In this document: positions 19,012 through 27,955 of the stretch, piece by piece
Position numbering within the stretch: the first letter of the stretch is position 1
Layout: the number at the start of each line of letters is the position of its first letter
Source of the DNA: Oerskovia jenensis
GTDB lineage: Bacteria; Actinomycetota; Actinomycetes; Actinomycetales; Cellulomonadaceae
Direction of reading: 5' to 3'
NCBI RefSeq assembly: GCF_016907235.1
Contig: NZ_JAFBBO010000001.1
Span: 3,906,001 to 3,970,000 of the forward strand
DNA: 64,000 bases
Position numbers and translations under genes: made by a program
Notes under the pieces: model-generated
The model's input: only the letters and a program-made list of their open reading frames with translations
Told to the model about the DNA's origin: nothing
Database searches by the model: none

Positions 19012-20769
19012 TCACCAGGCCACGTACGTGACCCTCGCGGAGTACGCCGTCACCTCGTCGAGCGTGACCAGGACGTCGATCTCCCAGGTTCCCGGTGCGG
19101 GGACGACGGTCGGCTCGGAGACGTACACGGTGGCGGGCACGTCGTCAGCGGTGTCCACTGTCGCTGGGGCGCGGGCATAGTCGCGACGCAGGACGACCGG
19201 GAGCGGCCCGATCCCCCGTTCGCTCTGCGTGACGGTGAGGTCGAGCGAGTCCGGCAGCACCTCGGTGCCGTCCGCGCTGCTGAGGTCGATCCTGATCACC
19301 TGGGGTCCGCTGCGCGTCTCCTCGATCGAGAGTGCCGCGGTCACGGGCCCGAGCTGCACGGTCCCGGCCCAGGGCGGCGAGTAGGTCGCGCGCCCCGGCG
19401 CGGTCGCGGCCAGAGCGGCGCTGAGCGCCAAGACGAGCACGACGAGCAGCATCTCGACGAGCACCGTCCGGTGCACCCGCACGACGGGCCCTGCGGACCG
19501 CCGTGCCGCGGGCACCGCTCGGCGCGCCACGTTCGCCACGAGGAGCAGCCCGATCACGACCAGGACCTTGGCCAGGAGGAGCCGGCCGTAGCCGGTGGAC
19601 CAGAGGGCCGCGACAGGGCCCAGGGCCCGGGCGGCCTGCAGCGTTCCCGTGGCGACGAGGACGACGACGGTGATCAGGGCGAGCGTCGACCAGGCAGGCA
19701 GTGCCGTGACCAGCGCTGTGCGCCACGGGCCGCGAAGGTGGGTCGCGAGCAGCGCGAGCCCCCCGACCCAGATCCCGGCCGCGAGGACATGGGCTGTCGT
19801 CACGGTGAGGGTCAGCCAGGGGTCCGGCTCGGCCCCTGCGTGGCCGCCTGCCGCGATGCTCGCGGCGAGCGTGACGGCGAGGGCGACGGTCGCGAGTCGC
19901 GCGGGCGACCCCGTCGCGTCGCGACCGTCGCGGGGGCCGCGACCTGATCGGGACTGCCAGATCCACAGCCCGACCCAACCCAGCAGAGCTGCCGACCTGG
20001 CGAGGAGCCAGGGTCCGCTCGAGGCGAGCACGCCCGCCCACGCCTCGGTGTCCAGGAGGTCGACGGGTCGCCGGTCCGAGAGGTCGGCGACCTGTGTCGC
20101 GAGACCCAGCCCCGTCCCGAGGACGAGCAGACCGAGGCCGGCCACCTCGAGCCGCCGGATCCTCGGACTCGCCGCCAGCCCTGAGGCACGCCCCCGGCCG
20201 ATGGCCAGCACGCTCAGGGCGACCCCGGCGAGCAGGCTCGTTCCCACGGCGACGATCCCACGGGCCGAGGCACCGAGGGGCGAGGTCCCGGGGGCTTCGG
20301 GGCCCGTCGGGTGCGTCCCTGGTGCGCCGTGCCTCGTTCCCACCGTGAAGTCGATCGAGCCACCCGTCACGTGCGTGTCGAGGGAGAGCAGCCGCCACGA
20401 GGCCAGGTACTGCCCGTCCGGGAGATCGGGCGGGAGGGCGACGCTCACGGTGTGCCCGCCGTCGGTCGTGGTGACCTGCTCGAGGTCCCACCGTTCGCCC
20501 CGGAGGTCCGAGACCACGAGCGAGCCGTCCAGCACGGTCACGGGCTCGTCGAAGCGGAGGACGACGCGCTCGGGGGAGGTGTCCGAGGTCGCCCCTTGGC
20601 GTGGCGAGGTGTCGACGAGGATCGCGTGCGCAGCGACCGGGGCGGCGCCGGCGAGCGCGCCCGTCCCGAGCCCTGCCAGGAGCACGAGCAGCATGGCCGC
20701 GGCGCGAAGCCGCTGACCGGAGCGGTCCGGCCTCGGGGGGAGGCCGGACCGGACGGGCAGGGCGGTCAC
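19012..20769 (-). CDS. copCD: CopC-CopD fusion, copper-handling membrane protein
   Basis: Predicted 585 aa; the GTG at 20769 overlaps the upstream ycnI stop (GTGA). A signal peptide ends near residue 47, leaving an N-terminal His (AHAILVDTSPRQGA), the copper-binding residue of CopC. The CopC domain runs to about 142 and ends in the family motif LSLDTHVTGGSIDFTVG. Residues about 165-450 hold several membrane helices of the CopD type (PWLLARSAALLGWVGLW, AAGIWVGGLALLATH, YGRLLLAKVLVVIGLLL). Residues about 460-585 form a second extracytoplasmic beta domain. These proteins bind copper outside and move it across or to the membrane. Last gene of the sulfur/copper operon. Confidence 0.92.
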   Translation of the reverse strand: MTALPVRSGLPPRPDRSGQRLRAAAMLLVLLAGLGTGALAGAAPVAAHAILVDTSPRQGATSDTSPERVVLRFDEPVTVLDGSLVVSDLRGERWDLEQVTTTDGGHTVSVALPPDLPDGQYLASWRLLSLDTHVTGGSIDFTVGTRHGAPGTHPTGPEAPGTSPLGASARGIVAVGTSLLAGVALSVLAIGRGRASGLAASPRIRRLEVAGLGLLVLGTGLGLATQVADLSDRRPVDLLDTEAWAGVLASSGPWLLARSAALLGWVGLWIWQSRSGRGPRDGRDATGSPARLATVALAVTLAASIAAGGHAGAEPDPWLTLTVTTAHVLAAGIWVGGLALLATHLRGPWRTALVTALPAWSTLALITVVVLVATGTLQAARALGPVAALWSTGYGRLLLAKVLVVIGLLLVANVARRAVPAARRSAGPVVRVHRTVLVEMLLVVLVLALSAALAATAPGRATYSPPWAGTVQLGPVTAALSIEETRSGPQVIRIDLSSADGTEVLPDSLDLTVTQSERGIGPLPVVLRRDYARAPATVDTADDVPATVYVSEPTVVPAPGTWEIDVLVTLDEVTAYSARVTYVAW

Positions 20770-21734
20770 AGCGGGGGCAGCCCGATCGGGCTGTGCGCGG
20801 TGCGGGGGCTCGGCGGTCGGCTCGCGGGGTCCTCGCCGAGCCCGTCGTGGTCGGGCGCGGCGCCGGGGTCGGGACCCACAGGCCTCCCGCCCGACGGCGT
20901 CGTCCCCGCCTCGGACCTGCGCCACACCAGGGCCACGGCCACCAGGGCGACCAGGGCTCCTGCGAGGGCGACGAGAGCGACGACCGCGATCCCGGCCACG
21001 GAGGCCACCTCGTCGCCGGCGAGTCCGTCGGGTCCTGTGCTCACGTGGTGCGCCGCCCCAGCCGCCCCAGCCGCACCTGCCGCACCGTTCGTGCCCGGCG
21101 GGCCGACCTCGGCGGCGAGCGCGATGCTCGGCGCCGGGTGCTCGGCCTCGGTGCCGTCGGTCGACCGGTCGATCCACCGGGACTCGGTCCCGTCGTCGTA
21201 CGTCTGGATCGTGGGCAGCACGAGCTCTCCCACCGCGGGGAGCGGACCGGCCTGCACCGTGAACTCCCCGTACTCGCCGGGGCCGATCGCGGCGGCCGGG
21301 TCGGTCGCCTCCCACACGACCCGGCTCACGGCCTGCGTGTACTGCCCGCCGTGCGGGTTCGTGACGGGTTCGGGGAGGTCTTCGAGCCTCACGGTGGCCG
21401 TCCAGCCGGGGAGCGGCGAGGTCCGCACGGCCGGTACCGGGGTGTCGAGCGGGAACGCGACCTCGATCCGGACGGTCGAGGCGGTCTCGGACTCGGTCGG
21501 GACGCGTACCGAGACGATGCTCCACCCTCCCTGCACGGGGGTCTCCGCGACAGCGGTCGCGTGCGCTCCGGCAGGCGTCGCGACGAGCGAGGACGCCGTG
21601 GCGAGGAGGCCGACCACACCGATGCGCACCGCCCAGCCTCCTGCGCGCGTACCGGCCAGGACGGTCCCACCCGCTCTGGACCGCCCGGGTCGCCGACGAC
21701 GCGTCGGCGTCGACCGGGCGGCCGCGGCGCTCAC
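20766..21734 (-). CDS. ycnI: YcnI-family (DUF1775) copper-binding protein
   Basis: Predicted 322 aa; GTG 21734 overlaps the preceding stop by 4 nt. A basic leader and signal sequence end at TPAGA-H58, placing His at the mature N-terminus, the copper ligand of YcnI proteins. DUF1775 beta-sandwich about 58-210 with GWTATVRLEDLPEP, ISRVVWEA-like VSRVVWEATDP and YGEFTVQAGPLP. A Gly/Ala-rich linker is followed by one transmembrane helix (about 245-275) and an acidic cytoplasmic tail. YcnI is typically encoded beside CopC/CopD, as here, and is thought to act as an extracytoplasmic copper chaperone. Confidence 0.9.
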   Translation of the reverse strand: MSAAAARSTPTRRRRPGRSRAGGTVLAGTRAGGWAVRIGVVGLLATASSLVATPAGAHATAVAETPVQGGWSIVSVRVPTESETASTVRIEVAFPLDTPVPAVRTSPLPGWTATVRLEDLPEPVTNPHGGQYTQAVSRVVWEATDPAAAIGPGEYGEFTVQAGPLPAVGELVLPTIQTYDDGTESRWIDRSTDGTEAEHPAPSIALAAEVGPPGTNGAAGAAGAAGAAHHVSTGPDGLAGDEVASVAGIAVVALVALAGALVALVAVALVWRRSEAGTTPSGGRPVGPDPGAAPDHDGLGEDPASRPPSPRTAHSPIGLPPL

Positions 21735-23284
21735 GCCGTCACCAGCGCGGAGTCGTCCGCAGCCGTGACCGGAGCCGCAGCCGTGACCGGAGCCACAGCC
21801 GTGACCGGAGCCACAGCCGTGACCGGAGCCACAGCCGTGACCGGAGTCGCAGCGGCCGCCTCGAGCACCTCGCGTCGCACGACCGCCACGACCCGCCCGT
21901 CGCGCAGCACGAGTCCTTCGGCGATGTCGGCGTCCCACCTGGCCAGGGCGTCTGTGAGGATCTCGCCCGTGCCGACGACGGGTGTCCCGCGGACGGCGAC
22001 GTCTCCGACGGCGACGCCTGCCCGGGCACCGGTGGCGGCCGCACGCAGGGTCGCGAGGTCCACGACGCCGAGGACCTCGGCGACCGACGGCTCGTGGTCG
22101 CGACGGGCGCGCGGCAGGAGCACGGGCACCACGGACTCGGCGGTCAGCCGGCCGTCCCGCCGGGCGGACTCGAGCGTGTCCCGGCCCACGCCCACGGGGA
22201 CGTCGGCGCTCAGGGTGAGCGGCGTCGTCGGGCGGGAGAGGGCGTCACCGACGACGTCCCAGACGATCGCCGCGACCGGGCGCGGACCGAGACCCTCGAC
22301 CTCTTCGTCCACGAAGCCGAACCGGCGCACCCAGTCCTCGTTCAGGTACTTGGAGAGGTAGGCGCGGCCCGAGTCGGGCAGGAGGGCGACGACCACGTCG
22401 TCGGGTCCCAGGTCGCGTGCGGTCCGCAGCGCCGCCGCGAGCACCAGCCCGGACGACCCGCCCACGAGGATGCCCTCCTGGCGGGCGAGGCGCAGCACCG
22501 CGTGGATGGCCTCGCGGTCGCCGACGCGCTCGAAGCGGTCGACGACCTCGGGCACGAAGGTCTCGGGCCAGGCGTCGTCGATCGTCTCGGGGTGCCGGTA
22601 CCGGCCGGTCGCCTCGACGAAGAAGGCCGAGCCGTCGCCGCCCGAGTACACCGAGGTCTCGGGGTCGGCGCCGACCACGGTCACGCGACCGCCGCTGACC
22701 TCCTTGAGGTACGTGCCGTTGCCCGTGATGGTCCCGCCCGTGCCGATCCCCGCCACGAGGTGCGTGACGCGCCCGGCCGTGTCGGCCCAGATCTCGGGGC
22801 CCGTGGACTCGCGGTGCGCCTGCGGGTTGTCGGGGTTGACGAACTGCCCCGCGAGCCAGGCCCCCGGGATCTCCGCGACGAGGCGCTCGGCGATGCGCTT
22901 GACGGACTCGGGGTGCTCCTGCGGCAGCCCGGACGCGGTGACCACGACGCGCGCCCCGTACGCGCGCAGCGTGTCGAGCTTCTCCTGGCTCGTCTTGTCG
23001 GGCAGCACGACGACGATCGGGTACCCGAGCTGGGCGGCGGCCTGCGCGAGACCGATGCCCGTGTTGCCCGACGTGCCCTCGACGATGGTCCCACCGGGGG
23101 CGAGGGCACCCGAGCGGATCGCGCCGAGCACCATCCAGCGCGCGGCGCGGTCCTTCACGGAACCGCCCGGGTTGAGGTACTCGAGCTTGACGTAGATCGT
23201 GGGCGCGAGATCCGCGCCCAGCCGGTTCAGCCGCACGATCGGCGTACCGCCGACCGCGTCGAGAAGGGAGTCGTAGGCGGTCAT
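21731..23284 (-). CDS. cbs: Cystathionine beta-synthase / cysteine synthase-like PLP enzyme
   Basis: Predicted 517 aa; ATG 23284 has GGAGG 6 nt upstream and overlaps the ABC ATPase stop (ATGA). PLP fold type II domain about 1-320, with the Schiff-base lysine in GGSVKDR (K44), SGNTG (72-76), TGPEIWADT and GTGGTITG. Residues about 340-485 resemble a paired CBS regulatory domain, as in the mycobacterial Cbs. It condenses serine (or an activated serine) with homocysteine or sulfide. Its position after an organosulfur-type transporter supports cysteine formation from imported sulfur. The C-terminus is odd: about 30 residues of a near-perfect six-residue repeat (VTAVAP-like). Followed directly by ycnI. 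Confidence 0.9.
   Translation of the reverse strand: MTAYDSLLDAVGGTPIVRLNRLGADLAPTIYVKLEYLNPGGSVKDRAARWMVLGAIRSGALAPGGTIVEGTSGNTGIGLAQAAAQLGYPIVVVLPDKTSQEKLDTLRAYGARVVVTASGLPQEHPESVKRIAERLVAEIPGAWLAGQFVNPDNPQAHRESTGPEIWADTAGRVTHLVAGIGTGGTITGNGTYLKEVSGGRVTVVGADPETSVYSGGDGSAFFVEATGRYRHPETIDDAWPETFVPEVVDRFERVGDREAIHAVLRLARQEGILVGGSSGLVLAAALRTARDLGPDDVVVALLPDSGRAYLSKYLNEDWVRRFGFVDEEVEGLGPRPVAAIVWDVVGDALSRPTTPLTLSADVPVGVGRDTLESARRDGRLTAESVVPVLLPRARRDHEPSVAEVLGVVDLATLRAAATGARAGVAVGDVAVRGTPVVGTGEILTDALARWDADIAEGLVLRDGRVVAVVRREVLEAAAATPVTAVAPVTAVAPVTAVAPVTAAAPVTAADDSALVTA
21762..21851. repeat. Five tandem copies of an 18-bp unit inside cbs
   Basis: Unit GCCGTGACCGGAGCCACA repeats five times with one or two substitutions. 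It is in frame in cbs and adds six-residue repeats to the disordered C-terminus, and it lies only 28 bp from the cbs stop/ycnI start overlap. Copy number could change by slippage without shifting frame. Confidence 0.95.
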
Positions 23285-24231
23285 GAGGTTCCTCCAGGAA
23301 GGGTCCCTGCTGCGCCGTCCTGGCCCAGCAGGTGCAGGATCTGGCGGCGCAGCGCCAGGTACTCGGGCGCTGCGTGGTCGCGGGGTCGGTCGAACGGGAC
23401 GGTCAGGTCGGCCAGCACGCGCGCGGGCCGGTCGGAGAAGACGACGACGCGGTTCGCGAGGCGCAGGGCCTCGTCGACGTCGTGCGTGACGAGGAGCGCG
23501 GTGAACCGCTCGGTCTGCCACAGGCGGAGGAGCTCGTCCTGCATGGTCAGGCGCGTGAGGGCGTCGAGCTTGCCGAGCGGTTCGTCCAGCAGGAAGACCC
23601 GCGGCCGGTTGACCAGCCCGCGGGCCAGGGCCGCGCGCTGGGCCATGCCCCCCGAGAGCGTGGCGGGCAGCGCGTCGGCGAAGTCGGTGAGCCCCACGAG
23701 GTCGAGCGCCCAGTCGACCCGGTCGGCGTCGAGCCGGGACCGGTGGCGAGCCTGAGGACCGAGCTCGGCGTTCTGGCGGACGGTCCGCCACGGGAACAGG
23801 TTCGGGTCCTGGAAGACCAGGGCCCGGCTCGGGTGAGGACCCACGATCGGGGTCCCGTCGACGGACACGCTCCCCGCGGCCGGGTCCGCGAGCCCCGCGA
23901 GGAGGCGGAGCAAGGTCGACTTGCCGCAGCCGGACGGGCCGACGAGCGCGACGAAGTCGGACGGGGCGACGTCGAGGCTCACGTCGTCGAGCACGGGCAG
24001 GGTCGTGCGTGCGGGTTCGCCGGCATCCCGGCCTGCCCGACGGCGGCCCGCGCCCCGTCCTGTCACCGCACCCAGTGCGCGGCTCGCCCAGCCGCGCTCG
24101 CGGCGACCCGCGAGGTCGAAGTGATGGCTGACCGCCTCGATCCGCACGTGCCCGCCGCGCAGGGGTGCCGCAGGCCGGACGTCCGTAGGGGCCGCGGCCG
24201 GGGCGGGGGCGTGCTGCGCAGGACTCACCAT
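23281..24231 (-). CDS. ABC transporter ATP-binding protein, NitT/TauT (sulfonate) family
   Basis: Predicted 316 aa. Start ATG 24231 (AGAAGGA about 9 nt upstream); GTG 24228 would give the usual 4-nt overlap with the permease. Walker A GPSGCGKST (98-106), Q-loop VFQDPNLFPW, signature LSGGMAQR (about 193-200), Walker B VFLLDEP, H-loop VTHDVDEAL. This is the SsuB/TauB/NrtD type. An Arg/Gly-rich insert (about 42-78) separates the first strand from the core, unlike most family members. It energises import with the permease and binding protein encoded just upstream. Confidence 0.93.
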   Translation of the reverse strand: MVSPAQHAPAPAAAPTDVRPAAPLRGGHVRIEAVSHHFDLAGRRERGWASRALGAVTGRGAGRRRAGRDAGEPARTTLPVLDDVSLDVAPSDFVALVGPSGCGKSTLLRLLAGLADPAAGSVSVDGTPIVGPHPSRALVFQDPNLFPWRTVRQNAELGPQARHRSRLDADRVDWALDLVGLTDFADALPATLSGGMAQRAALARGLVNRPRVFLLDEPLGKLDALTRLTMQDELLRLWQTERFTALLVTHDVDEALRLANRVVVFSDRPARVLADLTVPFDRPRDHAAPEYLALRRQILHLLGQDGAAGTLPGGTS

Positions 24232-25385
24232 CGGACCAGATCCTTCTCCCAGGACAGCACGGCGTTCCGGACCCGGAACAGCAGGACGATCAGGGTGCGG
24301 CACAGCAGCACCATGATGAGGATGGCGACGTACATCTTGGGGTAGTCGGCCCAGCCCTTGACCCAGGAGATGTACCAGCCGAGACCGCTGCGGACCCCCA
24401 GCAGCTCGGCGAGCGCGAGCGCCCCGAGCGAGGCGCCGAGGCCCATGAACAGACCCGTGAAGATGCTCGGCAGCGCCCCCGGGATCGCGACCCGCCACAC
24501 GAGGAAGCGGGCCTTCGCGCCGAGCGTCTGCGCGACGTCGAAGTACCCGCGGGCGACCGACGCGATCCCCGCACGGGTCAGGACCGCCATGGGGAACCAC
24601 ACGCCGAACGCGATCATGAAGATCGAGCCGAGCTGCGGCGTCGGGACGATGACGAAGACGAGCGGGAGCAGCGTGCCCGCGGGCACGGGGCCGATCGACT
24701 GGAGCACCGGGTGGATCCAGTAGTTGGCCACCTTGCTCCACCCCATCGCGAGGCCCGTGAAGAAACCGCTCACCGCACCGACCGCGAAACCGACGAGCAG
24801 CAGCCGGGTCGAGGCCCAGAAGCTGCCCCAGAGCAGGCTGCGGTCCTCCCAGAAGTCGGACAGGAGCGTCTCCGGCGGCGCGAAGTGCGGCGCGTGGAGC
24901 CAGCCGGTCTTGGCCGTCGTGACCTCCCAGACCACGAACCACGCCGCGACGGCGACGTACCACCACGACCAGTGGCGGAGCCGGGTCGCGGCCCCCGCGA
25001 CGCTCAGCGCGAGCGCGAGCCAGACGGAGACCACGAGGACCACACCACCCAGGACCGCGAGGAAGGCCGTCCTGCCGGCGAGCGGGGAGAGGTCGGGGAC
25101 GTCGGGGACGCACCAGGTCACGGCGAGCACGACGATCCACGACGCGACGACGAGCAGTCCGCGCCGGAGCGTCGTCGGACGTGGGGTCGCTGTGCGGGTG
25201 GCGCCCCCGTCACCGGGGACCTCGTCACCCTCGGCGGAGGGTCCGTGACCCTCGGCGACGGAGGAGCCGTCCTGGGCGGCCGGGGCGTGACCCTCGGGCC
25301 CGCCTGCCCCGTCCTGGCGGTCTGCGCTCCCGCGGGCGGGCGTGCCCGTGGCACGCCTGCCCGGGACGCGCGTCAACGAGGTCAC
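24225..25385 (-). CDS. ABC transporter permease, NitT/TauT family
   Basis: Predicted 386 aa; GTG 25385 overlaps the binding-protein stop (GTGA). It has a Gly/Asp-rich hydrophilic N-terminus (about 1-50), two extra membrane helices (about 55-110), then the canonical BPD_transp_1 domain with the EAA-like loop around VAQTLGAKARFLVWRVAIPGALPSIFTGL. Around seven to eight membrane segments in all. Family members import sulfonates, taurine, nitrate or thiamine precursors; the downstream cbs gene and the Cys-coding leader favour an organosulfur substrate. Confidence 0.92.
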   Translation of the reverse strand: MTSLTRVPGRRATGTPARGSADRQDGAGGPEGHAPAAQDGSSVAEGHGPSAEGDEVPGDGGATRTATPRPTTLRRGLLVVASWIVVLAVTWCVPDVPDLSPLAGRTAFLAVLGGVVLVVSVWLALALSVAGAATRLRHWSWWYVAVAAWFVVWEVTTAKTGWLHAPHFAPPETLLSDFWEDRSLLWGSFWASTRLLLVGFAVGAVSGFFTGLAMGWSKVANYWIHPVLQSIGPVPAGTLLPLVFVIVPTPQLGSIFMIAFGVWFPMAVLTRAGIASVARGYFDVAQTLGAKARFLVWRVAIPGALPSIFTGLFMGLGASLGALALAELLGVRSGLGWYISWVKGWADYPKMYVAILIMVLLCRTLIVLLFRVRNAVLSWEKDLVRW

Positions 25386-26770
25386 CAGGTGAGCCCGAGG
25401 TCGGCGTACACGAGGTCCGCGAGCTTCTTGGGGTCGGTGCCCTGGTCCAGGTACCCGGTCTTCGCGAACTTCGCGATCCCCGGTTCGATCTCCTGTCGCA
25501 GCCCCACGGCCGACGGGCTGAAGCCGTAGGTCGTGAGGACCGACCTGACCGTTTCGACGTCGGCCGCGACGAGCTGCTTGTCGACCTCGAGCTGGGCGAT
25601 CTCGTCGATGTTCGCACCCACGTACCGGGCGCCCTCGGCCCACGCCTCGGTGAGGGCCTTGGCGACCTCGGGCTCGTCACGGACGAGGGCGCCGTTGATC
25701 GCCGTCGCGCAGCAGTAGGTCTGGGCGTTGAGGCCCTGCTGGTTGTTCGCGAGCTCGTGGGCGTAGCCACCGAGCGTGGGCAGGAGGGCCACGGGGTCGG
25801 AGGCCGCGATGGCCTGGATCTCACCGTCCTGCAGGGCCTGGGGCAGGATGTCGTTGTCGTACACGACCCACTCGACCTCACCGGCCGCCGGGTCGGGGTT
25901 GATCCCGGCGTCGAGCAGGTCGAGCGAGAAGAAGGACATCGCGGAGTTCCCGATCGAGGACACCCCGATCTTCTTGCCCCGCAGCAGCGCGACGTCGTCG
26001 TACGGCGAGTCGTTCAGCACCACGAGGCGCAGGCAGCCCTCGTGCAGTCCCGTCGTGAGCTTGACGTCGAGCCCCTGCTCGATGGGCTTGAGCCAGCTGA
26101 AGAAGATGCCCGGCCCGCCCGCGTAGGTCCCGGACGAGATGCCGTCCTTGGTGTCCTCGCCCGCCGCGCTGCGCACGACCTCGACGTTCAGGCCGTAGTC
26201 CTTGAAGATCCCGAGGTGGTGCGCGGCGTACAGCGGGGCCTCGCAGATGCCGCCGCCCTCGACGATCCGCAGGACCTTCGTGGTCAGGAGGGTCGGGCCG
26301 AGCGAGGGTGAGGCGCCCCCGGCCACGGCCCCCGCCGGGGAGACCGCGGCCGACCGGGACGCCCCCAGGAGGTAGCCACCCGCGCCGCCCAGGAGCAGCG
26401 CGCCGACGGCCACGCCGCCGACGAGCAGGTGCCGCCGGGAGATCAGGGGCCCGTCGGTCGCGTCGTCGTCGTGGAGGAGTGAGGGGTCGTAGGGCTCGGC
26501 GGGCGGGCCCGGGTGCGGCTGTCCGGCGGGGAGGTCGGTGTCGTCGGCGCCGGGGGCGACCGGCCCGCCGACCGCGGCGGGCGTGGCACGCCTGTCGCCC
26601 GGGGTCTCGTGCCGCAGGTCGTCGACGCCCGACGGCGGAGCCTGCGCCGTGCGGTCGTCCTGGCGCTCACCCGTGGCCGGGTCGGGCGCGGGCGTCCGGG
26701 GAGCCGGTGCGCTCGGCGTCGGGGCGTCGTCGGGCGTGCCCGGCTGGTCGGGGGAGGTGCGGTCGGTCAT
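25382..26770 (-). CDS. ABC transporter substrate-binding protein, NitT/TauT family, with long cytoplasmic tail
   Basis: Predicted 462 aa from ATG 26770 (GAGAGG upstream). A disordered Pro/Asp/Gly-rich stretch of about 110 residues precedes a twin-arginine-like signal or anchor (SRRHLLVGG at 111, hydrophobic to about 137). The binding domain follows (about 165-462; GICEAPLYAAHHLGIFKDYGL, GKKIGVSSIGNSAM). There is no lipobox Cys, so it may stay anchored by an uncleaved helix or be Tat-exported. First structural gene of the six-gene operon. Substrate probably a sulfonate or related sulfur compound (inference from context). Confidence 0.88.
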   Translation of the reverse strand: MTDRTSPDQPGTPDDAPTPSAPAPRTPAPDPATGERQDDRTAQAPPSGVDDLRHETPGDRRATPAAVGGPVAPGADDTDLPAGQPHPGPPAEPYDPSLLHDDDATDGPLISRRHLLVGGVAVGALLLGGAGGYLLGASRSAAVSPAGAVAGGASPSLGPTLLTTKVLRIVEGGGICEAPLYAAHHLGIFKDYGLNVEVVRSAAGEDTKDGISSGTYAGGPGIFFSWLKPIEQGLDVKLTTGLHEGCLRLVVLNDSPYDDVALLRGKKIGVSSIGNSAMSFFSLDLLDAGINPDPAAGEVEWVVYDNDILPQALQDGEIQAIAASDPVALLPTLGGYAHELANNQQGLNAQTYCCATAINGALVRDEPEVAKALTEAWAEGARYVGANIDEIAQLEVDKQLVAADVETVRSVLTTYGFSPSAVGLRQEIEPGIAKFAKTGYLDQGTDPKKLADLVYADLGLTW

Positions 26771-27014
26771 GAGGGGCCTCTCGGAAGGGTGGTCGAGGAC
26801 GTGCACGGGCGCAGGTGCGTCGAGAAGGAGATCGGGAGAACGCGTGACGCCAGGAGCCGACCGCGCGGGAGCGGGCTGCAGACGTCGAGGAAGGGGACCG
26901 TGCGAGATGGCAGACGGTGTGCGGCCGCGCTCGTCGGCGCGGTCGCTGTCGCGGGGTGCGCGCCGTCGGCGGTTCGTCCCGGGGTCGACGACGCGGCCGG
27001 TGTCACAGGGTAAG

Positions 27015-27032
27015 GACCCGACGCGTCGGGTC
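27015..27032. promoter_or_regulatory. 18-bp perfect palindrome in the operon leader
   Basis: GACCCGACGCGTCGGGTC is perfectly self-complementary. In the minus-strand leader it lies 27 nt after the uORF stop. It can act either as a dimeric-repressor operator or, in RNA, as part of an attenuator stem. The remainder of 26771-27058 shows no convincing gene (a 79-codon frame ending at the SBP start is discussed in the findings). Confidence 0.6.
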
Positions 27033-27058
27033 ACGCCAAGGGCGTCAGGCGCCTGCGG

Positions 27059-27157
27059 TCAGCCGCGACAACAGCGCGCGCCCACGGCCGACGTCGCAGC
27101 GCAGGGGGCGTGGACCGGGCTCTGTGCCCGGCCAGGAGGAGTGGTCGTGGCCGACAT
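27059..27157 (-). CDS. Putative leaderless cysteine leader peptide (uORF)
   Basis: Predicted 32 aa, starting MSATTTPPGRAQ, with one Cys at residue 19 and ending ARCCRG, so tandem Cys codons (TGT TGT) fall three codons before the stop. The ATG is 7 nt after a TACTCT -10 box, which predicts a leaderless mRNA. It lies 288 nt upstream of the transporter/cbs operon. Cys-Cys uORFs of this kind are known in mycobacteria to attenuate sulfur genes: ribosomes stall when charged tRNA-Cys is scarce. No homologue was searched; the assignment rests on position, codon content and promoter geometry. Confidence 0.7.
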   Translation of the reverse strand: MSATTTPPGRAQSPVHAPCAATSAVGARCCRG

Positions 27158-27164
27158 GCCGCAG

Positions 27165-27193
27165 AGAGTAGGGGCAGCACGTCGGTTCCGCAA
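27165..27193 (-). promoter_or_regulatory. Promoter of the sulfur/copper operon leader
   Basis: On the minus strand: TTGCGG (27193-27188), 17-nt spacer, TACTCT (27170-27165). Seven nucleotides separate the -10 box from the uORF ATG, placing the transcription start at or one base before the A of the ATG. Confidence 0.6.
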
Positions 27194-27328
27194 GGAGTTC
27201 CGCCGGTCGTTCCGCACAGCGGTCCGGTCTCGATGGCGGGCGGGGCGTCACCACGGTCCTGCGAGAGTCACCCGGGACGCGCCGCGGGGCAGGAAGAGCT
27301 TCGACGCCGGGCCCGCTAGCCTGACCGG

Positions 27329-27955
27329 ATGGCACGAGGGATCTACGTCGAGACTCCGATCTCCGCCTCGCTCGACGTCGTGTGGTCGCTCACGCAGGAC
27401 CCCGAGCAGCACGTGCGGTGGGACGTCCGGTTCTCGCGGATCGTGCCGACCGGGACCACGGAGTCGGGCGCCACCCGGTTCACGTACACCCGCCGCGTCC
27501 TGTTCCGCACGGTCGCCGGGGACGGCGTGAGCCTCGGGGAGACGGGGGGTCGTGACGGCTCGCGGACCTCGGCCCTGCGGTTCGCGACGTCGGACCCCGT
27601 GTCCCCCATCCGTTCGGGTCGCGGCTACTGGCGCTACGTGCCGGACGGCGACGGCGTCCGCTTCGTCACGGGCTACGACTACACCCCCGGCTGGGGGAGC
27701 GCCCTGGACCGTCTCGCGCGCCCCGCGCTGGGCTGGGCCACGGCGTGGAGCTTCGACCGCCTGCGCATCTGGGCCGAGCGGGACGAACCACCCGAGCGGT
27801 GGCCGCTCGTGAGCGTCCTGTGGTTCTGGCGCCCCGAGCGACCGCGTGCCGCCCGGTGCCGTCGGGCACCGGACGGCGGCCGACGCCGCGACGACCACCT
27901 GCGCGACGCGCCCGCGACCCTGGCCACGCTCCCCGCACCGGGAAGGACCCCATGA
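27329..27955 (+). CDS. SRPBCC-family protein (polyketide cyclase/START-like)
   Basis: Predicted 208 aa. Start ATG 27329, six nt after a TAGCCT box, so probably leaderless. The N-terminal YVETPISASLDVVWSLTQDPEQHVRWDVRFS and the later GRGYWRYVPDGDGVRFVTGYDY are typical of helix-grip (SRPBCC) proteins that bind hydrophobic ligands. The C-terminal 50 residues are Arg-rich and probably disordered. The stop overlaps the next start (ATGA), so it is translated together with the DUF4166 protein; a conserved pairing would imply they act on the same lipid-like ligand (inference). Confidence 0.8.
   Translation: MARGIYVETPISASLDVVWSLTQDPEQHVRWDVRFSRIVPTGTTESGATRFTYTRRVLFRTVAGDGVSLGETGGRDGSRTSALRFATSDPVSPIRSGRGYWRYVPDGDGVRFVTGYDYTPGWGSALDRLARPALGWATAWSFDRLRIWAERDEPPERWPLVSVLWFWRPERPRAARCRRAPDGGRRRDDHLRDAPATLATLPAPGRTP

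Follow-up and report, generated by a model that had tools for sequence, protein, structure and literature searches.

A predicted leaderless frame of 32 codons, with tandem cysteine codons close to its end and located upstream of an ABC transporter operon in Oerskovia jenensis, very probably functions as a cis-acting cysteine-codon attenuator of that operon. The frame lies on the minus strand of a 64,000-nucleotide stretch of contig NZ_JAFBBO010000001.1, hereafter referred to as the window, in which positions are counted from the first letter. The leader and its promoter comprise the following elements, all read from the sequence.

27188..27193, minus strand: -35-like box TTGCGG, with a 17-nt spacer to the -10 box
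27165..27170, minus strand: -10 box TACTCT, with exactly 7 nt between the end of the box and the ATG
27059..27157, minus strand: candidate leaderless Cys-codon leader frame of 32 codons (ATG 27157-27155, stop TGA 27061-27059)
27068..27073, minus strand: tandem Cys codons TGT TGT (codons 29 and 30), the presumed stall site

The leader peptide, MSATTTPPGRAQSPVHAPCAATSAVGARCCRG, has Cys at codons 19, 29, and 30, and terminates in Cys-Cys-Arg-Gly-stop. The original prediction of a 32-codon frame with tandem cysteines holds, but its placement of the pair right before the stop does not, since Arg and Gly codons intervene. The promoter that it proposed at 7 nt before the ATG (TTGCGG-17-TACTCT) matches the sequence, and remeasurement from the leader stop to the ATG of the substrate-binding protein (SBP) at 26770 gave the same gap of 288 nt between leader and operon. 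A generic sigma-70 scan returned no promoter at the window leader. The 7-nt spacing between -10 box and ATG is also found in the leaders of relatives, and the transcript would be expected to start at ATG 27157 or at an adjoining position, with translation initiated there.

Downstream of the leader are six genes on the same strand.

25382..26770, minus strand: ABC substrate-binding protein (SBP) with SsuA/NMT1 fold, by family and fold matches
24225..25385, minus strand: ABC permease (BPD_transp_1), start GTG 25385 or TTG 25376
23281..24231, minus strand: ABC ATPase, by family match
21731..23284, minus strand: PLP enzyme (PALP), cystathionine beta-synthase/cysteine synthase-like (CBS), by family match
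20766..21734, minus strand: YcnI-like DUF1775 protein, likely GTG start 21734 overlapping the CBS stop
19012..20769, minus strand: CopC-CopD fusion (CopCD), likely GTG start 20769 overlapping the YcnI stop

Given the likely starts, all six window genes overlap their predecessor, and they can therefore fairly be regarded as a single operon. Family matches for all six genes agree with the content originally ascribed to it, i.e., uptake, cysteine/cystathionine synthesis, and copper proteins; for the PLP enzyme, the top NCBIfam model is cystathionine beta-synthase, with a score under the model cut-off. No internal promoter was found among the six genes, and a single terminator-like site is present inside CBS, where 0.8 are expected by shuffling. 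The predicted model of the SBP core (mean pLDDT 91.7) has E. coli SsuA as its top match in the PDB (TM 0.77, 15 percent identity), a similarity that does not by itself settle the ligand. Cys 176, 246, 353, and 354, the last two adjacent (window 25385-26293, minus strand), are invariant across 23 aligned SBPs, and may serve as metal or thiol ligands. The SsuA-like importer is probably a cysteine/sulfur-supply system, and the leader offers a functional clue to the role of this uncharacterised transporter.

The combination of promoter spacing and terminal cysteines is rare in the genome. To gauge chance, both strands of 464 kb were surveyed, namely the window and 20 stretches of 20 kb taken at even distances along the same genome. 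In this sample, TANNNT is placed exactly 7 nt upstream of 14 ATGs that open a frame of at least 8 codons; two of these frames are short (at most 60), and only the window leader has at least two Cys in its last 12 codons. Genome-wide, the pattern TANNNT-N7-ATG-NCN, in which the second codon is NCN, occurs at 95 sites, compared with 13 for the reversed control pattern. Frames of at least 87 residues start at 86 of the 95 sites, which indicates that the signature mostly marks real leaderless genes. Nine sites belong to short frames (at most 70), three of which have at least two Cys in the last 12 codons: the window leader, the sulfite reductase leader L156, and L165. The L165 frame, MPGSSGRNEAHPSCCRGLPRPA (74-160; genome position 1621667), contains a CC pair followed by seven codons and the stop, and the gene behind it (GTG near L165:282) is of secreted type with a twin-arginine-like signal and no visible link to sulfur, which implies that one such Cys-pair frame can arise by chance or have another role. 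TANNNT-N7-ATG together with Cys codons before the stop provides a simple genome signature for finding the remaining regulon.

Of 121 genomes sampled from its own family, 1 carries the transporter, as judged by SBP matches with E up to 1e-30, and because of this the family is uninformative on conservation of the leader. The corresponding numbers are 3 of 99 genomes for the order (E up to 1e-10), 4 of 101 for the family of genome G169 (E up to 1e-40), and 1 of 148 class-wide (E up to 1e-60), the last being the window genome itself. Within the genus, a search for DNA conservation of the upstream region gave merely short, weak matches elsewhere. A contig search with the single SBP protein as query returned no relative, and with an alignment as query 31 loci were obtained, 14 from Mycobacteriales (Tsukamurella, Nocardia, Gordonia, and Rhodococcus) and 17 from Actinomyces. 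The latter, together with the loci of genomes G169, G138, G289, and G268, form an Actinomycetaceae set of 21 loci with 17 distinct frames; the four genomes were counted as Actinomycetaceae given that the leader frames of G138 and G289 are also found in named Actinomyces and all four are of one family.

Conservation of the Cys codons and the frame among relatives, as implied by the original prediction, is present at all 21 Actinomycetaceae transporter loci, where a Cys-rich ATG frame of 31-39 codons occupies the same place, ending 187-330 nt from an SBP start that was placed by eye from RBS-like sequence. Exactly 32 codons are found in 13 of the 21, as in the window. In all 22 leaders (21 from Actinomycetaceae and the window; 18 distinct frames), precisely 7 nt separate TANNNT from the ATG, an arrangement seen at 0.7 percent of the 3582 ATGs in those loci, leaders included; the leader ATGs were chosen by frame length prior to measuring the -10 spacing. 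There is no common -35 box across the Actinomycetaceae loci, and a TTGCA-type box occurs in some. In the 12-codon tails of the 22 leaders, Cys codons number 93 in the reading frame of the leader, as compared with 29 and 5 in the alternative frames, and each tail contains 2-6 Cys, the window having the minimum of 2. The SBP of Actinomyces ruminis (L071, near 7731) has an in-frame stop before any assignable start, possibly a frameshift or assembly error, and the spacer of this locus was truncated at 250 nt in the pairing, duplex, and C-over-G analyses described below.

Outside the Cys codons, the leader peptides are not consistently constrained. Of 16 pairs compared, eight have pN/pS below 1 (0.45-0.76), six have values above 1 (1.3-4.2), one differs by synonymous substitutions alone, and one does not differ at all. 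These pairs give no clear sign of selection at the protein level, and mild constraint in some clades is possible. The concentration of Cys codons in frame, combined with inconsistent constraint on the peptide, is more readily explained by a device that reads codons than by a peptide that binds metal or is secreted.

Sister leaders are found at sulfite reductase (PF01077) loci, which were scanned in 16 genomes. A leaderless Cys-rich frame precedes the gene in 14 of these, i.e., the window genome, its six congeners, three of the five further genomes from the family, and all four from Actinomycetaceae, with a -10-to-ATG spacing of 7 nt in 13 leaders and 8 nt in one. The window genome's sulfite reductase leader (L077/L156, genome position 1293149), MTTAAHLLLVTARHESTACARNSFCCCC, ends CCCC-stop, a poly-Cys leader is also present in all six congeners, and the four Actinomycetaceae leaders end MCCRA or MCCQA. 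In the 1.5 kb scanned at the loci of G015 and G026, no leaderless Cys frame was found; a CCC frame present in G026 lacks a -10 box. When the window leader tail was compared with the sulfite reductase leader tails of G289 and G138, the match was better than in all 2000 mononucleotide shuffles (p 0.0005). Ten of the 14 sulfite reductase tails were compared with the window in this way, eight giving p<0.05 and the other two 0.06 and 0.73, and six transporter leader tails treated by the same method gave p 0.0045-0.39.

The SBPs closest to that of the window are those of the 14 Mycobacteriales loci (59-63 percent, 13 loci aligned, as compared with 49-52 percent for Actinomycetaceae, 9 loci aligned), and according to tblastn they carry the gene set of the window (L042-L055; CBS in 12, YcnI in 13, and CopCD in 12 of the 14, with some contigs ending early), CBS being upstream of the SBP in two of them. 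None of the 14 has a Cys-pair frame with a -10 box, either in the 600 nt or in the 2500 nt that were scanned; in three loci, Cys-pair frames without a -10 box lie more than 1 kb upstream, and these were assumed to be parts of upstream genes. Conversely, no YcnI, CopCD, or CBS was detected by tblastn in the available DNA of the Actinomycetaceae loci, of which L040, L041, L058, and L062 do not extend far enough for a verdict. Leader and copper genes thus appear to co-occur only in the window genome, and since the leader is missing from all 14 loci of Mycobacteriales, in which this gene set recurs, the tie between leader and copper genes rests on one genome. The leader seems to go with the transporter and sulfite reductase rather than with the copper genes, and cysteine control of YcnI and CopCD, which the original prediction included, would follow from the gene overlap in this genome. 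Several Nocardia loci (of L043-L055) share a different stretch within approximately 150 nt of the SBP start, TCGAAATCTGTTCG-like and then TTTTGCGACTCTG-like as judged by eye, which is perhaps an own promoter/operator replacing the Cys leader.

The SBP, permease, and ATPase together with CBS, YcnI, and CopCD constitute an uncharacterised system of organosulfur/copper type, which was perhaps acquired by transfer. A distant relative of the transporter on Paracoccus yeei plasmid pYEE2 (L035 1562-8858; SBP 36.9 percent identity) is followed by a CopC-domain gene, and is flanked by luciferase-like monooxygenases and a gene of the acyl-CoA dehydrogenase family, which places organosulfur-type and copper genes side by side in a different phylum as well. 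An organosulfur-copper link in the gene set is suggested by these neighbours and by the recurrence of the set in Nocardia-type genomes. A more far-reaching proposal, which draws on the same two observations, is that a shortage of cysteine acts by way of one leaderless Cys leader to induce a copper-bound or copper-sensitive organosulfur importer and a sulfur-fixing enzyme, along with YcnI and CopCD that handle the copper, the long-range helix described below acting as the platform. We regard this proposal as rather doubtful. If true, it would mean that regulation links the economies of cysteine and copper directly, and the window operon offers a case in which the control of copper genes by a cysteine signal can be tested.

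With respect to mechanism, the favoured cysteine-codon attenuator would operate as follows. With transcription beginning at ATG 27157, ribosomes would load at the 5' end of the mRNA and translate the 32-codon frame. When Cys-tRNA is ample, they would arrive at the stop, and expression of the operon would be low. When Cys-tRNA is scarce, they would stall at Cys codons 29-30, and perhaps at codon 19, and the stall would alter the folding of the 288-nt spacer or the access of Rho to it, such that the six-gene operon, and with it the import and fixation of a sulfur compound, would be turned up. Initiation at the ATG, stalling, and the cysteine response are predictions. The original prediction that the cysteine-attenuation logic of mycobacteria operates here gains support from the leaders at 21 of 21 Actinomycetaceae loci and from the sister leaders of sulfite reductase.

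Three further elements in and behind the leader may be relevant to such a response.

27041..27053, minus strand: post-stop element GGCGCCTGACGCC, of the pattern GGCG-N1-4-GACGCC
27063..27082, minus strand: 5' arm of a candidate long-range helix, including both Cys codons, by duplex energy
26936..26954, minus strand: 3' arm of the candidate long-range helix, with CCGCGACAGCG, counterpart of a GCCTGRCAGC-type box in 10 Actinomycetaceae leaders

The pattern of the post-stop element is common to the window and 6 of the 21 Actinomycetaceae leaders (three with identical frames), and GCGCCTGAC is present behind the stop not only of the window leader but also of 11 of 14 sulfite reductase leaders. The post-stop motif, which was picked post hoc, has a frequency of 0.001 in mononucleotide shuffles and 0.003 per 45 nt of genome stretches. 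The helix is best seen in ten leaders that end in Cys-Gln-Ala-X (CQA leaders; L036, L041, L058, and L066-L072), in which GCTGTCAGGC (ACTGTCAGGC in L070) around the last Cys codon is complementary to the downstream GCCTGRCAGC-type box. The last Cys codon and the two codons behind it base-pair with this box, which is located 60-130 nt ahead of the SBP start (p 0.003-0.027 per leader against dinucleotide shuffles). In all eight CQA leaders that were folded, the MFE structure joins both arms. The gapped duplex p values for the CQA leaders are 0.003-0.29 (L036 0.29, L058 0.24, L041 0.07, and L067 0.06). Aligned by column, eight CQA leaders have almost invariant core pairs, with compensatory types just outside the core, and because the core is nearly invariant, the support from covariation is slight. 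In the window, the duplex energy of the helix is -34.2 kcal/mol, with an uncorrected p of 0.037 against mononucleotide shuffles, and the MFE fold joins GGCGCGCGCTGTTGTCGCGG to CCGCGACAGCGACCGCGCC, approximately 110 nt further on; the best ungapped pairing (p 0.043) is not the same as the duplex/MFE pairing. Among the 12 non-CQA leaders, p<0.05 was obtained only for the window (0.043), L037 (0.023), and L065 (0.010) by ungapped pairing, L037 and L065 having the same frame; by duplex energy, the window (0.037) and L059 (0.010) were the sole leaders below this threshold. The long-range helix is accordingly a supported prediction for the ten Actinomyces leaders and a weakly supported one for the window.

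For the step that would convert a stall into output, Rho-dependent termination is our guess, made purely by elimination, because folding did not reveal a Shine-Dalgarno switch and a scan did not reveal an intrinsic terminator in the leader. In crude models of the stalled and terminating states, the unpaired value for the window Shine-Dalgarno region was 0.43 vs. 0.42, with no consistent difference among the 22 leaders, and no GC hairpin followed by a U run is present in 26600-27400. The C-over-G maximum is 0.25 in the window spacer vs. 0.35 inside the window SBP gene, and for this reason provides no positive evidence for Rho in the window; a few leaders have a spacer maximum above that of the SBP gene (e.g., L036, 0.46 vs. 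0.26). A search of Rfam with window 26600-27400 (E up to 1) gave one match far below gathering score, and at gathering level the 17 relative loci gave two tRNAs only.

An alternative to codon reading is a nascent peptide whose many Cys residues bind copper or sense thiol redox, with the ribosome answering to the metal. Such a device has a precedent in CruR of Bordetella (PMC9426467, as far as its accessible text goes), and would agree with the presence of YcnI and CopCD in the window operon. A C-x-x-C motif is also present in 19 of the 21 Actinomycetaceae transporter leaders, as expected from dense Cys runs. However, the window peptide has neither C-x-x-C nor a RAPP motif, and the four Actinomycetaceae sulfite reductase leaders lack C-x-x-C as well. 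Furthermore, leader and copper genes part company in both directions, the former being absent from the Mycobacteriales operons with copper genes, and YcnI, CopCD, and CBS not being seen in the available DNA of the Actinomycetaceae loci with a leader (four of which are too short to tell). Taken together with peptide bodies that are not consistently conserved, this makes a copper-sensing peptide highly improbable. It is more improbable still that the window frame has no regulatory role, being either a spurious ORF or a leaderless small protein. L165, a leaderless-type Cys-pair frame ahead of a non-sulfur gene, illustrates that such frames exist, but the rarity of the signature in the genome, the identical spacing in 22 of 22 leaders, the recurrence at 21 of 21 loci, and the concentration of Cys codons in frame all speak against it for the window.

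A further question is how far the influence of the attenuator extends. It might govern the transporter only, with CBS, YcnI, and CopCD uncoupled by an internal promoter or terminator, which is compatible with the cysteine-codon attenuator as far as the ATPase gene, and is in line with the finding of just transporter genes behind the Actinomycetaceae leaders. With six overlapping genes, no internal promoter found, and a terminator-like site in CBS that is close to the chance expectation of 0.8, we consider such uncoupling unlikely.

The kind of attenuator that we propose is already known, and the window leader and the Actinomycetaceae transporter leaders would add to it. Cysteine-responsive attenuation in M. 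smegmatis was reportedly described by Canestrari in 2020. As far as the accessible descriptions of mycobacterial polycysteine sORF attenuators go, the window leader resembles these in its predicted leaderless start, short frame, Cys cluster near the stop, and location at the head of a sulfur operon; downstream sulfur/cysteine genes, as predicted for the class, are found by family and fold (SsuA-type transporter and CBS-like enzyme). In the available part of PMC4633059 (Shell 2015), Cys-rich uORFs on leaderless mRNAs are placed before cysA2, Rv0485, and nirA, and ribosome occupancy is stated for the uORF of the M. smegmatis cysA2 ortholog. The accessible text of PMC1262725 (2005) predicts Cys leaders for the cys operons of Mycobacterium and P. 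acnes and for cbs of B. longum, with no obvious terminator, and suspects Rho for mycobacteria. As for those leaders, the window leader has Cys codons near the stop and no intrinsic terminator was found, but that text names no transporter operon or Actinomyces leader, although A. naeslundii is among its genomes. A literature search, mostly without subscription papers, returned no such leader before this transporter or in Actinomyces or Cellulomonas.

Two more distant systems share individual features with the window leader. According to the accessible part of PMC8632094, uORFC-8-2, which precedes cysS in Rhodobacterales, also has two tandem Cys codons, but is equipped with an intrinsic terminator and followed by a different gene. 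CruR, which in the available text of PMC9426467 senses copper by a CXXC and a C-terminal RAPP, is likewise a uORF with Cys in its product before a metal-related operon, but it is a larger protein, and both of its conserved motifs are absent from the window frame. Compared with the mycobacterial sORFs, in so far as the sources at hand describe them, the leaders reported here differ in belonging to Cellulomonadaceae and Actinomycetaceae, in preceding an SsuA-like transporter (in the window along with CBS, YcnI, and CopCD), and in their spacer of 187-330 nt, and they extend cysteine-codon leaders to the Actinomycetaceae, to this genome, and to a transporter operon.
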